Source of the DNA: Planctomycetaceae bacterium
Lineage (GTDB): Bacteria > Planctomycetota > Planctomycetia > Pirellulales > UBA1268
Direction: 5' to 3'
Length of the DNA stretch: 38,361 nucleotides
Assembly: GCA_947449135.1 (NCBI GenBank)
Contig: CANFQO010000026.1
Location: forward strand, 1 to 38,361
Under the pieces are notes generated by a model. It saw only the letters and a list, made by a program, of their open reading frames with translations. It ran no database searches and was not told the origin of the DNA. Both the position numbers and the translations under genes were made by a program. Positions 27,507 through 33,720 of this stretch are shown here, in pieces (position 1 is the first letter of the stretch; the number at the start of each line of letters is the position of its first letter).

Positions 27507-29279
27507 CTAGGGGTTTGCCTTCTTTTCCAGTTCTTCCGCGAGCAGTCGGCTCCCGAACCGCTGCGGAGAAGCATCTTCGCGGAGCAGTTTGACAGCCTCC
27601 TCCGTGCGGCCGAGCCCGATCAACGCCCGGGCCAGATTCACACGGGCCGCGTCGGTCCACCTGCTATCGGGAGCCGCCTCCAATGTCATGCGTCCCAGAT
27701 AATCGACTGCCGTAGCATTCTCCCCCTCGAACAGCGTGAGCACTCCGAGCCAGTAGGTGGCATCTTCCTTCATCTGCTCAAAGAGTCGCCTCACTCCGTC
27801 GGCCTGCTCCGGAGGAAACAGCTTGAGGGCGGCGGCAATTGCCTGCCTCCCCGGTCGGGCCGCGAGGTAGCTCGCCTTTGCCCCCTCCGGTCCGTCGAGT
27901 TCGCCGCGGAATTCCCGAAGCCGGGCGGCATAGAGCGGTCGCATCACCCGCGTGCTGCGCTGCCCCTCCAGGCCATCCGCCTGGCCAGGCTGAGCTACCG
28001 TCACGGACATCACCGCCAACTCCCTTCCCGCAGCCACTTGCACGCGGGCTGAGTCGCCTTGTCGCCGGGTCAGCACCTCCCAGGGAAACTCCCAAAGAGC
28101 AACCCGGCGTTCAGCACTGGCTCGGTCGCCTGCTGCGGTCGCCACGGACGATAAAGCCTGCGAGGCCCGTGTACCCACGGCAGACGCATCGATCGCGAGT
28201 TTCATGCTCCGCGAGCCGACGAGTTGGTCATCCATGGCCCGCATGCGACGCGAGAGGCTCCAGGGATCGGCCGCCACAAGCACAGATAGTCCGGCGATAT
28301 CCGCCGCCTGCACCGGGTAGCTGCGGTCGGCAACCGAGAGTCGCTCCAGGATGATGGGGTCGGTCGCCGCCTGCCGGGCAGTGGCCACTCCGGTTCCATC
28401 CGGTCCCGCAATGGGGATGCCATAGGTGGGCTCGAAGAGCCACGCCTCTCCGCTCGCAATGACCGCAGGAATCCAGGCGCGAACGCCACCGCGATCGGCG
28501 TCGCCAGTGGCCAGCATCACGCCGTCGAGCCCAGCATGCCGGAGCAATTCGAGAAAGATCCACGCCCGCTGCGCCGGGCTTGCCCGCCCCGAGAGCAGGA
28601 TCTCACCGGGCAGAAACCAACGAGAGCCTGGAGCGGAATCGGACGACGTCATCGGCGGATCACTGACCAGCGCCAGTGACCGCACCGTCCAGCGAAAGAG
28701 ATTGACTGCGATATCGAGATCCTCGACGGCGTCTCCCCGCGCACTGGCAGCGATATCAGCCAGCCAACGCTGATCACGCAAGGCTGTCATGTCGCTCGCC
28801 GCATCAAACACCGCACTGCCGAGTGTTTGCGGCGTAGCGCCGGCACGCAGGCGATCGGTCACGGAGTCAAAGAGTGGATCAACCTGCCACTTGGACGCTG
28901 GAGTCGCCCCGGCGATCACCGCGGCATGGCTCCACTGGTTCAGTCGGTCGAACACCTGCGCGAAGGCCGACTCTTCGTCGTAGTCCTCGAGCCTATCGAG
29001 AACCGACACCGCGCCATCAAGCAGTTGTTCTCGGACATCCTCCGAGACGGCCGGCATCACCCGCACCTGCTCCTGGGACTGCACCCTGGGTGGCGGGGGT
29101 GGCGAGCCGCAGCCGACCAGCAGCACAACGGCCACAAGCAGCGAGCCTCCGACAAGCAGGCGTTCCATGCGCGGGAGCTGCCCAACGGACCGCGATCTTC
29201 TTAAACGACTTGCTTCCGTGCTCCCCATCCTCAAGCACCTCACGCCCAGTGCGTTGCGGCCTAATGCCCGCCGATTCAT
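27507..29279 (-). CDS. Lipoprotein with degenerate transglutaminase-like domain and TPR tail
   Basis: A 590-residue product when read from the ATG at 29279, whose A is shared with the kdsA stop (TGATG) and which follows GGAGG at seven bases. A later ATG at 29168 gives a compact lipoprotein signal ([20 protein letters not shown], 553 residues). The middle part resembles a transglutaminase-like fold ([20 protein letters not shown], then RAWIPAVI and LFEPTYG), but the expected Cys is missing, the His position is Arg and the Asp position is Glu. It is therefore unlikely to be an active enzyme. The C-terminus (about 480-590) reads as tetratricopeptide-like helices ([41 protein letters not shown]). 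It is probably a periplasmic binding or scaffold protein co-expressed with kdsA. Confidence 0.75.
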
Positions 29280-30130
29280 CAGGTTGCCTCCGTACCTGCC
29301 AGACCATCCAAGCGGGCCTCGTGGATCCGCAGCACCCGTTCCACCACGCCCCGCAGACTCTCCAGCGGCACCATATTCGGACCGTCGCTGGGACTCTTGT
29401 CAGGATCAGGGTGCGTCTCTAGGAACAGGCCGTCAATGCCGACCGCAGCCGCAGCCCTGGCGAGCGGTTCGACCAAGGCCCGATCGCCTCCGGTCGAATC
29501 GCCACGGCTGGCGGGCTGTTGAACGGAGTGGGTGGCGTCGAAGACCACGGGCACGCCCATGGCCCGCATCGTGACGAGGCCGGCAAAATCGTTGACCAGC
29601 CTGCCGTAGCCGAAGAACGTGCCGCGTTCGCAGAGCAGCACGTCCCGGCAACCCCCGGCGAGCAACTTCGCCACCACGTGCTTCATGTCGACCGGGGCGA
29701 CAAACTGCCCCTTCTTGACGTTGACGGCCCGCCCGGTCGCGGCGGCTGCCAAGAGCAGGTCAGTTTGACGGCAGAGAAAGGCCGGAATCTGCAGCAAGTC
29801 GCATACCTGCCCGGCAGCGGTAGCCTGCTCCGGCAAGTGCACGTCGGTGGTGATCGGCAGCCCGGTCGCGGCTCGCACCCGATCCAGCACGGCCAAGCCC
29901 TCGTCCACCCCCAACCCCCGATAGGACGACACGCTCGTGCGATTTGCCTTGTCGAACGACGCCTTGAACACCACGTTGATCGGAAGCGTGGCGGCAAGCC
30001 TGGCCAATGACTCGGCGATACTCAGGCAGAGACTCTCGTCATCAATGACGCACGGGCCGGCGATCAGCAGCAACGGGCAGCCCGGCCCACACTGATGGGT
30101 GCCAACCAACGCTGGGAGTCGAGGATTCAC
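29279..30130 (-). CDS. kdsA: 3-deoxy-8-phosphooctulonate synthase (KDO-8-P synthase)
   Basis: Condenses phosphoenolpyruvate with arabinose 5-phosphate to KDO 8-phosphate, the first committed step to the KDO of lipopolysaccharide. The 283-residue product has [61 protein letters not shown] and [17 protein letters not shown]. Cys27 in AGPC marks the metal-dependent class II enzyme (class I has Asn there). The GTG at 30130 follows CAGGGAA and gives normal length; a TTG at 30160 is in frame but falls inside the predicted -10 box. The gene overlaps the next start as TGATG. It points to a KDO-containing lipopolysaccharide in this organism. Confidence 0.95.
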
Positions 30131-30159
30131 GGTGCGTTCCCTGTCATGGACTGCAGGCA

Positions 30160-30188
30160 ATGATACGGGGACTGCGAACTGTTGTCGC
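30160..30188 (-). promoter_or_regulatory. Promoter candidate for kdsA
   Basis: Minus-strand GCGACA (30188-30183) and TATCAT (30165-30160) are 17 bases apart; the transcript would start about 23 bases before the GTG at 30130. This supports the GTG start over the TTG at 30160. Confidence 0.45.
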
Positions 30189-30486
30189 GGCGGCGATTCT
30201 CTCGCCCATCATGATCGTGCCGAGGGCAGGCAACTAGGGCGAGCCACGATCAACGATGGAAAGAGCTCTTCAAGGTGCTGGTCGCGGACCTTGCGGCAGT
30301 CTGTTGCAGAATGCGGCGCGCCGCGCATTATGCCCAACTCGCCGGACGGTGGCTTGGCCCACCTTCCTTAGCCAGGTGATGTCGTTGTCCGCGTCGACCG
30401 CCGCCGTCCCGCCAGGGCGAAACGCAGCAGAAAAACAGCCGCTCTCCGCACTCATGCCGCCGGCAGAGGGCAGGCCGCCCCCCTCA
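30189..30486. other. Gene-free stretch upstream of kdsA
   Basis: About 300 bases with no convincing gene on either strand. A minus-strand frame here (within 30270-30440) has a short segment (WLRKVGQATVRRVGHNARR) that faintly recalls a helix-turn-helix of IS630-type transposases, but it is too short and isolated to call. Confidence 0.4.
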
Positions 30487-30529: not shown

Positions 30530-30545
30530 TGGCACGCCGTATGCA
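30530..30545 (+). promoter_or_regulatory. Sigma-54-type -24/-12 promoter candidate
   Basis: The 16 bases TGGCACGCCGTATGCA match the consensus TGGCACG-N4-TTGCW at all specified positions but one (A for the first T of TTGC). The GG (30531-30532) and GC (30543-30544) are ten bases apart as required. Transcription would start near 30556, just before a set of hairpins that ends in a U-tract at 30687-30699. Confidence 0.55.
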
Positions 30546-30555
30546 ATTGACGGAG

Positions 30556-30699
30556 ATCGCCGGGAACACTGGTTCCCGCCCCACCGCACTTTGAAGTGGG
30601 GCCTCCGACCACATCCGGCCGTACGGTCAATCGCCCCTGACCCGTACGGCCAAGACAGGGCGCTCCTGTCGGGTCAGAGGCCCCACTTTTTTCTTTTTT
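30556..30699 (+). ncRNA. Candidate structured small RNA with intrinsic terminator
   Basis: About 145 bases of intergenic sequence that folds on paper as follows. Hairpin A is CGGGAAC-ACTG-GTTCCCG (30561-30578, 7 perfect pairs). Then comes a three-way junction: closing stem P1 (30594-30610 with 30672-30688, 17 positions with one mismatch), P2 (30617-30629 with 30638-30651, one bulge, core GGCCGTACGG/CCGTACGGCC) and P3 (GACAGG/CCTGTC, 30654-30670). P1 is followed at once by TTTTTTCTTTTTTG, the form of an intrinsic terminator. CTGACCC (30637-30643) can instead pair with GGGTCAG (30671-30677), which would break P1. No open reading frame explains the sequence. I do not recognise a known RNA family. 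It ends before the tRNA promoter at 30745. Confidence 0.55.
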
Positions 30700-30744
30700 G
30701 AATTGTCTTTCTGACGATCTGCCCGGGTTTTTGGCCGTTGACCC

Positions 30745-30830: not shown

Positions 30831-30904
30831 GCCAGCGTAGCTTCAATTGGCAGAGCACCGCATTCGTAATGCGGGGGTTGTGGGTTCGATTCCCACCGCT
30901 GGCT
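30831..30904 (+). tRNA. tRNA-Thr (anticodon CGT)
   Basis: A full cloverleaf of 74 bases can be drawn: acceptor GCCAGCG/CGCTGGC with discriminator T, D stem GCTT/GAGC, anticodon stem CCGCA/TGCGG around loop TTCGTAA (anticodon CGT, reading ACG), and T stem GTGGG/CCCAC around TTCGATT. No CCA is encoded. It is followed 115 bases later by the TPR-alphaCTD gene on the same strand with no terminator seen between, so read-through expression is likely. Confidence 0.97.
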
Positions 30905-31019
30905 CTCACCGCATCTTCAGCGATGATTGCCAGTCTCGCCAGTTGCCTGTCTATTAACTCGAGCCCATCTTTCCTTTCCCAGACACTTTCCCACCAGCTT
31001 TTCCAAACAAGGGCCATTC

Positions 31020-32375
31020 ATGGTCGCCACCGTCAAGCACGTTCCCACCAGCATCGACATCCGCGAGCTCGTCACCGGCAACGGCCCATTTGGTCCCAGC
31101 GAAATCCGCGGACTGACACAGGCGCTTGGTGGCGACGCCTCTGCTCACCGTGACGTGCGGGCCGCGGTCCGGGAACTGGAGCAACTCACTGACCGCAGTC
31201 CGGCCGCGTCCGTGAGGCTCGGCGTGTGCCAGTATCTGCTGGGTCGCTACCGAGAGGCGCTCGAAACGCTCCGGTCCGCGGATGGTGGGGCGCTTGCGCT
31301 CTTTCATCAGGGACTGGCCCATGTGGCCCTCGAGGCCTTCGACAAGGCAAAGGAAGCCTTCGATGCCGCGAAGAAATCCGGATACGACGCCATCGCCTGC
31401 GCCGCGGCCGCGGCGGATGCCCTCCGGGCTGGGGGTCATCTCGACGAAGCCAAAAAAGCGGTCGAGGAGATGACGGCTGGCAAGGACGCGGAAGCGGCCA
31501 GTCAATCCGCCGACTACTGGGCCGTGAAGGGGGCCATACTGGCAGACCGGGGCTGCGCCGCCAGCGAGGTCGCCGAGGCGTTCGAGAAGTCTGTCGCCAT
31601 CGACCCGGGACATGCTCACGCGTTGTTTGCGCTCGGTGTGCTCAACGATCGTGCCGGCAACGACGAGGAGGCTCAGGCCTGCTACGAGCGGTCGCTCGAA
31701 CGGTATCCGGCATCCCTCGGGGCGTTGCTCAACCTGGGCATCATGCACGAGGACCGCAACGATTTCGCCAAGGCACAGCAGTGCTACCGCAGGATTCTCG
31801 AAGCCATCCCCGACCATCCGAGGGCGCGGCTGTTTCTCAAGGACTCCTCGGCCGCCGGCGATCTGCGGACAGAGGAGCAGGAGCAGAAGCAGCGTGACCG
31901 GATCGAACAGGTCATGGGCCTGCCGGTCAGCGACTTCGAACTGTCGGTGCGCAGCCGCAATTGCCTCCAGAAAATGGGGATCAACACTCTCGGCGATCTC
32001 GCCCGGACCAGCGAGGCTGAGATCCTGGCCAGCAAGAATTTTGGCGAGACGAGCCTCGTTGAAATCAAGGACATGCTGGCTTCCAAGGGACTCTCCCTGG
32101 GGCAGTTCGCCACAACGGTACCGGCGGAGGAGCCGGAGCCGGAAATGGCCGAGCCATCCGCCGACGAGCAGGAACTGCTGTCGCAGCCGATCACCGAACT
32201 CAACCTGTCGGTCCGGGCCAGGAAGTGCACCACCAAACTGGGCATCAACGTCATCTCAGAACTCGTGCGCCGGACGGCCGAGGATCTGATGGAATGCAAG
32301 AACTTCGGCGTTACAAGCCTGAACGAGGTTCGCGAAAAGCTGTCCGAACGGGGCCTCAAGCTCCGCGGCGACTGA
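31020..32375 (+). CDS. TPR protein with two RNA polymerase alpha C-terminal domains
   Basis: A 451-residue cytoplasmic protein. Residues about 50-285 are tetratricopeptide-type helices (ALALFHQGLAHVALEAFDKA, HALFALGVLNDRAGNDEEAQ, LLNLGIMHEDRNDFAKAQ). Two alphaCTD copies follow. The first (about 300-365) has LSVRSRNCLQKMGINTLGDL and NFGETSLVEIK; the residues equal to E. coli alpha Arg265, Asn268, Cys269, Ser299 and Glu302 are kept, Lys298 is Thr. The second (about 385-450) has LSVRARKCTTKLGINVISEL and NFGVTSLNEVR, with Asn268 replaced by Lys. It has no RpoA N-terminal domain, so it is not RNA polymerase alpha itself. The ATG at 31020 follows AAGGG. It may bind UP-element-like DNA or transcription factors and present them to TPR partners. 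Confidence 0.9.
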   Translation: MVATVKHVPTSIDIRELVTGNGPFGPSEIRGLTQALGGDASAHRDVRAAVRELEQLTDRSPAASVRLGVCQYLLGRYREALETLRSADGGALALFHQGLAHVALEAFDKAKEAFDAAKKSGYDAIACAAAAADALRAGGHLDEAKKAVEEMTAGKDAEAASQSADYWAVKGAILADRGCAASEVAEAFEKSVAIDPGHAHALFALGVLNDRAGNDEEAQACYERSLERYPASLGALLNLGIMHEDRNDFAKAQQCYRRILEAIPDHPRARLFLKDSSAAGDLRTEEQEQKQRDRIEQVMGLPVSDFELSVRSRNCLQKMGINTLGDLARTSEAEILASKNFGETSLVEIKDMLASKGLSLGQFATTVPAEEPEPEMAEPSADEQELLSQPITELNLSVRARKCTTKLGINVISELVRRTAEDLMECKNFGVTSLNEVREKLSERGLKLRGD

Positions 32376-32399
32376 GCGGAAGGTGAGCTGTTTTCGACA

Positions 32400-32429
32400 A
32401 AAACCACCCTCTCGAGGGGGCTTTTGTTT
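32400..32429 (+). terminator. Intrinsic terminator after the TPR-alphaCTD gene
   Basis: The stem AAAACC-A-CCCT, loop CTCG, AGGG-GG-C-TTTT lies 25 bases after the stop and runs into TTTTGTTTG. Confidence 0.6.
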
Positions 32430-32532
32430 GCGTTTGTGGATGGTTCCCGGTACCGTGGTTGTATGCAGGTGGGATGCGACGGCTCGAGCGGAGGCCGGCT
32501 TCCCCTCTGTGCACACCCGGAAGAACCATCGG

Positions 32533-33720
32533 ATGACCTCAGCCAGCCTTAAGGAAAAGCCCGTCCGCGATCTGGCCCGCCTCGCCAAGCAGCACGGTGT
32601 TGCGGGCTGGCATGCCATGCGAAAGGACCAGCTCATCCGGGCCCTGGTCCGCAAGGCCCGAGCGCGGCCACCGGTCGCGGCGGCAGCCCGAAGCGTGGCA
32701 GTTCCCTTGCGCACGAACGGGCGTGACGGTCGCACTGCTGTCCAGAACGCTCGGCCAAAGACGATTGGGAGCTTCCCGAGCGGGCTCCCCGCAGGCGGCC
32801 TGCCCCGTGCCGAGGTCCAGATCCAGGATGCCGCCGTAGCCCTGCGGCTCCAGCAGGCCCGGGAGCGACTCCTCAAGGCCAAAAACCTGACCACGCCCCC
32901 AGAGGGCGGCCGCTCACCCCGTCCCGTGAGGGACCGCATGGTGCTGATGGTCCGAGGGCCTCACTGGATCCACGCCTTCTGGGAACTCACGGCCCGCAGT
33001 ATCGCTCGCGCCCAAGCGGCACTCGGGCAGGAGTGGCACGGCGCCAAGCCAATGCTCCGGCTCATCGAACTGGAAAGCGGCCTCAACGCCTCCCCGTCCG
33101 AACGCGTGGTCCGTGAGATCGCCGTGCATGGCGGGGTAAAGAACTGGTTCATCGATATTCGTGAACCCCACCGCTACCGCTGCGAGATCGGCTACCTGGG
33201 GGTCTCAGGCCGGTTTCATGTCCTCGTGCGGAGCAACGCTGTCACGATGCCGACCACCCCTCAAGGCGACACTCTCGACTCTCACTGGGGCGCGATCGTC
33301 GATGATTGCGAGCGGATCTACGCCATGAGCGGCGGCTTCTCGGCCGAACACTCCAGCACGGAACTCCAGGAACTCTTCGAGGAGCGCCTGCGACGACCAA
33401 TGGGTCCGCCGCCAGCCCGCAGCAGCGGGGCGGAGGACGAAGACGGAGAGGACGGAGCCACGCCGTTTGAGCTCGAAGTCGATGCCGAAATGGTCGTCTA
33501 TGGCGTGACACAGCCTGGAGCCTACGTCACCTTGCAGGGCGAGCCTGTCCGAGTGCATGCTGACGGCACCTTCCGGGTCCGGGTGGAAATGCCCAACCGG
33601 AGGCAGGTGCTGCCGATCGTCGCCAGCACGGCTGACGGCGGCTCGCGGCAGACTGTCGTGATGGCGGTGGAACGCAACACCAAGTCGATGGGCCCTGCCG
33701 GGCGCGATCAGCAGGAGTGA
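32533..33720 (+). CDS. DUF4912 protein with Rho N-terminal-like motif
   Basis: A 395-residue protein. Residues about 5-42 match the Rho_N (SAP-like) motif (LKEKPVRDLARLAKQHGV, then MRKDQLIRAL), a small helical nucleic-acid-binding element. A basic, Arg/Ala-rich linker follows. Residues from about 135 form a DUF4912 domain (VLMVRGPHWIHAFWELT, MLRLIELE, WFIDIREPHRYRCEIGYL). The C-terminus (about 315-385) is a beta-rich module (MVVYGVTQPGAYVTLQGEPV, GTFRVRVEMPNRR). The ATG at 32533 begins directly before the Rho_N motif; the frame is open to 32383, but that segment crosses the terminator of the previous gene. The role of DUF4912 is unknown; RNA or DNA binding is inferred from the Rho_N part only. 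Confidence 0.82.
   Translation: MTSASLKEKPVRDLARLAKQHGVAGWHAMRKDQLIRALVRKARARPPVAAAARSVAVPLRTNGRDGRTAVQNARPKTIGSFPSGLPAGGLPRAEVQIQDAAVALRLQQARERLLKAKNLTTPPEGGRSPRPVRDRMVLMVRGPHWIHAFWELTARSIARAQAALGQEWHGAKPMLRLIELESGLNASPSERVVREIAVHGGVKNWFIDIREPHRYRCEIGYLGVSGRFHVLVRSNAVTMPTTPQGDTLDSHWGAIVDDCERIYAMSGGFSAEHSSTELQELFEERLRRPMGPPPARSSGAEDEDGEDGATPFELEVDAEMVVYGVTQPGAYVTLQGEPVRVHADGTFRVRVEMPNRRQVLPIVASTADGGSRQTVVMAVERNTKSMGPAGRDQQE

Follow-up and report, generated by a model that had tools for sequence, protein, structure and literature searches.

A candidate sigma-54-controlled small RNA conserved across the planctomycete order Pirellulales

We identified a single-copy gene for a previously uncatalogued small folded RNA in a 38,361-nt stretch of DNA from a Planctomycetaceae bacterium (contig CANFQO010000026.1 of assembly GCA_947449135.1, hereafter the window), which nearly all families of the order Pirellulales have kept together with a sigma-54-type promoter. 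The gene was compared across genomes without a measured transcript, and it is best described as a probable trans-acting regulatory RNA with a putative sigma-54 switch. A sequence-only reading of the window had proposed a sigma-54-like promoter, a folded small RNA with its own terminator, a complete transcription unit of about 145 bases between kdsA and tRNA-Thr, and no recognisable RNA family. Every computable part of this proposal held when tested. To this we add that the RNA occurs across the order as a single copy, that it has a putative tandem upstream activator site, that the terminator is the closing stem of the three-way junction itself, and that linkage to tRNA-Thr is common but not required.

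Identification of the RNA gene

The -24/-12 element TGGCACGCCGTATGCA is located at positions 30530–30545 on the forward strand and matches 10 of 11 consensus positions of TGGCACG-N4-TTGC, a score reached in only 2 of 2559 control stretches of 110 nt. It is the only match without mismatch to a slightly relaxed pattern in the window. Position 30556 lies twelve bases after the -12 C and was taken as the inferred 5′ end of an RNA of about 143 nt (30556–30698, forward strand), whose 3′ end was inferred from the terminator. The minimum free energy fold of 30556–30710 is -75.7 kcal/mol (z = -7.3), and none of 200 shuffled sequences folded as well.

No open reading frame starting inside the transcript exceeds 36 codons (30591–30701, TTG start), and the pattern of compensatory change is that of an RNA and not of a peptide. 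Apart from the tRNA, Rfam 15 gave no match in the window even at E ≤ 5, nor did nine further loci give any at gathering score. A diverged housekeeping RNA (6S RNA, signal recognition RNA, RNase P or similar) could be considered since the RNA is strongly structured, single copy and found across the order. Yet this seems very unlikely, as the Rfam models of these families gave no match, the sigma-54 promoter implies conditional expression, and the RNA is absent from some near-complete genomes of the order and, apart from two weak truncated hits, from the rest of the phylum.

Distribution within the order

A blastn search found the segment in most genomes of the same family, and a covariance model built from 32 of these found it in 189 of 297 genomes of the order at E ≤ 0.01, although the E-values come from shortly calibrated models. 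Three contigs that carry it have the same lengths as records titled Pirellulales bacterium (JADHNY010000023.1, JAGYJY010000007.1 and JAICLL010000110.1), so the order is Pirellulales. A second, broader model was used to sample the class and phylum. In one such search all 74 matching genomes were from the order, and in another the only hits outside it were two truncated ones of 42–55 nt at E about 1e-3. No convincing match was thus found elsewhere in the phylum.

The RNA is present as one locus per genome. Most second hits listed are weak reverse-strand echoes of the same palindromic stem, as seen directly in the own genome. A DNA element or inverted repeat without a functional RNA, such as a mobile element end or an integration site at the tRNA, might be suspected from a long inverted repeat next to a tRNA gene. 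This is refuted for practical purposes by the single copy in the genome, by the chromosomal neighbourhood kept across families, and by strand-specific G-U pairs, compensatory changes, promoter and U-tract orientation, which all fit RNA. About a third of the genomes in the order gave no match. Some of these were lost to the strict filters, since four genomes (G076, G086, G090 and G110) missed by the first model were recovered with the second, but several near-complete genomes (G040, G141, G144, G174 and others) gave no match even with looser filters and really seem to lack a recognisable copy. The two of these that were checked (G040 and G141) encode sigma-54 activators; the missing copies would reflect either lineage-specific loss or strong divergence.

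Predicted structure and covariation

The predicted fold consists of a 5′ hairpin, a three-way-junction core and an intrinsic terminator built into the closing stem of the core. The 5′ hairpin (30561–30567 paired with 30572–30578) has seven pairs. Its sequence changes freely, but a hairpin of at least 5 pairs is kept in 53 of 57 homologs tested. The closing stem P1 (30593–30610 paired with 30672–30689, 17 pairs) has the 5′ strand GUGGGGCCUC-C-GACC, with GGGG and CCU nearly invariant across the order, and encloses the arms P2 (30617–30629 paired with 30638–30651) and P3 (30654–30659 paired with 30665–30670). The 3′ strand of P1 (GGUCAGAGGCCCCAC) runs into the U-tract TTTTTTCTTTTTT, and together they form the intrinsic terminator (30672–30698), which can be summarised as GGGGCCUC/GAGGCCCC followed by U6 or more. 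The U-tract is kept among the homologs compared. In families outside the window's own, UGGCCCG stands directly 5′ of P1.

Base pairing is supported by covariation. Among 59 homologs, 95.8% of the pair cells are standard pairs, against 34–49% when the partner strand is slid, and 25 of 30 pairs show changes on both sides (10 of 12 in P2 and 5 of 5 modelled pairs in P3). The covariation score is 0.53, against 0.06–0.08 when the partner strand is slid by 1–3 columns. This alignment was fitted to the model, but a MAFFT alignment of nearer relatives, not fitted to any structure, already gives 14 of 30 pairs with double changes. Two features are conserved beyond what pairing needs, namely the GGGG/CCCC core of P1 and the loop of P2 (AAUCGCCCCU in the window; order consensus NCUUGCCCYU). 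The latter is the one invariant unpaired element, with G30633–C30636 and U30638 identical in 59 of 59 homologs.

Promoter and upstream activator sites

The -24/-12 element (TGGCACG-CCGT-ATGCA in the window) is kept upstream of nearly every homolog. The GG is invariant in 59 of 59 homologs and the GC is present in 58 of 59, and a strict pattern matches 55 of 59 upstream regions, against 2.4% of control stretches from the same loci. RpoN was found in 53 of 59 relatives, including the own genome (contig C66, 13203–13676, E 5e-61).

Expectation-maximisation on the upstream regions gave a 17-bp palindrome with the consensus YGYNGCA-N3-TGCNRCR, mostly 100–210 bases upstream of the -24 box. This motif exceeds 11 bits in 49 of 67 loci, against 1.9 in shuffles. 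In 35 of 67 loci two copies stand 18–22 bp apart, almost always 19 or 20, against 0–1 loci in shuffled controls. The motif was found and scored on the same loci, and the shuffles control for composition but not for shared ancestry among near relatives. Tandem sites on the same face of the DNA are typically used by enhancer-binding proteins, and the palindromes are therefore putative activator sites. In the window, site 1 (TGTTGCAGAATGCGGCG, 30302–30318) is strong with 16.1 bits to the order-wide motif, while site 2 (30321–30337) is degenerate and weak. Site 2 keeps only the core GCA-TTA-TGC, exactly 19 bp after the core of site 1, and the window was not scored as having a pair.

A second palindrome, GTCTCA-N3-TGAGAC, is enriched in upstream regions (23 of 59 loci at 9 or more of 10 matches, against 0.27 in shuffles), for example at three loci of other families, L077 (-218, -98), L097 (-227, -100) and L074 (-227, -32), relative to the -24 box. 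It usually lies 205–240 bases upstream of the sigma-54 promoter, nearer the divergent gene, and may be the operator of that gene or of another regulator. As it is missing from most loci of the own family, the tandem TGYNGCA-N3-TGCNRCA fits better as the activator site.

A search of seven genomes for the tandem found close copies (0–1 mismatch) only at the RNA locus or, in one fragmented assembly (G033), on a separate untraced contig, whereas all other matches needed 3 mismatches. The activator may therefore serve this RNA alone, but no regulon gene points to its identity. A search with PF00158 gave about eight strong sigma-54 activator genes in the own genome, too many to choose from. In one other genome (G041) a sigma-54 activator gene lies about 4 kb downstream of the RNA (contig C1, 1573779–1574279, reverse strand), which could be the cognate activator or chance.

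Genomic neighbourhood

The divergent upstream neighbor in the window is a kdsA-like gene of the DAHP_synth_1 family (29279–30160, reverse strand). Such a gene is kept in 35 of 59 loci, while a gene that appears to resemble diacylglycerol kinase is kept in 19 loci. Downstream, tRNA-Thr(CGU) is found at 30831–30905 on the forward strand and is not part of the unit. It is followed by a TPR protein with two C-terminal RNA-polymerase-alpha-CTD domains (30927–32375, forward strand; PF03118, E 6e-42, two stretches). A TPR protein with spare alpha-CTDs is unusual, and related ORFs recur beside the RNA in the own family. The next gene in line (32383–33720, forward strand) encodes a protein with a Rho N-terminal domain and DUF4912, and its relatives recur at six other loci of the family.

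The tRNA-Thr lies 130 bases downstream of the RNA in the window and is present in nearly all loci of the own family, and the loop GCCCC could compete with the 3′ strand for GGGGC of P1. The RNA might thus be a 5′ leader, attenuator or riboswitch with the closing stem as a conditional terminator. However, tRNA-Thr is absent within about 3 kb in most loci of other families and the downstream genes differ, while promoter, RNA and terminator stay together. The terminator stem is kept in every family and no antiterminator shows covariation. A leader function is therefore unlikely, and the RNA is better seen as a standalone gene.

Possible mode of action

We infer that an enhancer-binding protein binds the tandem palindromes when it senses its signal and opens the sigma-54 promoter in an ATP-driven manner, so that the RNA goes from silent to strongly made. 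The 5′ hairpin and the terminator stem would protect the ends of the RNA, and the active part would be the UUGCCCYU loop of arm P2. Hfq (PF17209) was not found in any of 39 genomes of the order, while control genomes scored as expected, and the RNA is therefore inferred to work without it.

The loop is complementary to AGGGGC(AA), a sequence resembling a ribosome-binding site, and we judge it most likely that the loop pairs with short G-rich sequences of target mRNAs and blocks translation starts. C-rich loops of this type seem to be typical of antisense RNAs in Hfq-independent systems. However, the ten-base complement of the extended loop, CAGGGGCAAG, was not enriched in eight genomes (48 non-self hits against 45 for the reversed control). 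Nearly all hits were inside genes on either strand, and no gene shared across genera carries it near its start. Long, conserved pairing with one target is thus not supported, which leaves room for a short seed or a protein partner.

A somewhat less likely, though possible, alternative is that the RNA is a protein decoy, in which the P2 loop and/or the P1 stem titrate an RNA-binding protein or enzyme without any mRNA pairing, following the logic of GlmY/RapZ, CrcZ/Hfq-Crc or RsmY/CsrA. The conserved sequence inside the paired P1 stem is not needed for pairing to mRNA alone and speaks for a protein somewhere in the story, and it is in line with this that no shared target was found for the ten-base loop complement in eight genomes and no Hfq in 39. 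On the other hand, no repeated protein-binding motif such as GGA loops is kept, since the GGA of the P3 loop is present in some families and absent in others, which argues against a CsrA decoy.

More tentatively, the RNA could represent a new family forming a dedicated switch, in which one activator controls essentially only this RNA. The RNA would then be an order-wide, Hfq-independent regulator with a new mode of action, where an invariant C-rich loop and an invariant terminator stem are read by a protein or by many short seeds.

Relation to known small RNAs

Small RNAs linked to sigma-54 and an enhancer-binding protein are already known. GlmY of Enterobacteriaceae is switched by QseF/GlrR at a sigma-54 promoter through upstream activating sequences (PMC6075780; PMC7073468). 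The RNA described here has a different fold, with a three-way junction fused to the terminator, and a different operator motif. CrcZ and CrcY of Pseudomonadaceae are linked to RpoN and CbrB and give global post-transcriptional control (PMC6292655; PMC4063720), but CrcZ works by binding Hfq, and no sequence relation was seen in Rfam. The Qrr sRNAs of Vibrio (sigma-54, LuxO) have an intrinsic terminator and appear to act by a conserved unpaired segment, as is inferred for the present RNA. However, they appear to depend on Hfq, to be usually present in several copies and to have four stem-loops, whereas the present RNA is single copy with a three-way junction.

No sRNA of this description in planctomycetes was found in the literature searched, and a sigma-54 regulon survey that includes Planctomycetia does not mention small RNAs in its main text (PMC12316311). 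The Rhodopirellula-1 motif, which has no Rfam entry and could not be compared directly, is a candidate structured RNA listed for Proteobacteria and Planctomycetes and marked as probably cis-regulatory (PMC2864571). Genome G141, whose size and single contig resemble Rhodopirellula baltica (an inferred identification), lacks the RNA described here.

Few small RNAs are catalogued in this group, with one review counting 8 distinct annotated sRNAs for Planctomycetes, Verrucomicrobia and Chlamydiae together (PMC9029176). An RNA kept across the families of the order with its sigma-54 promoter and putative activator sites gives a concrete entry point: a gene to delete, a promoter to report on and a named loop to mutate (for instance as a UUGCCCCU loop mutant). 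It would test how RNA regulation works without Hfq. The comparison also suggests that sigma-54 with dedicated activators has been joined to small-RNA output in yet another phylum, alongside GlmY, Qrr and CrcZ.
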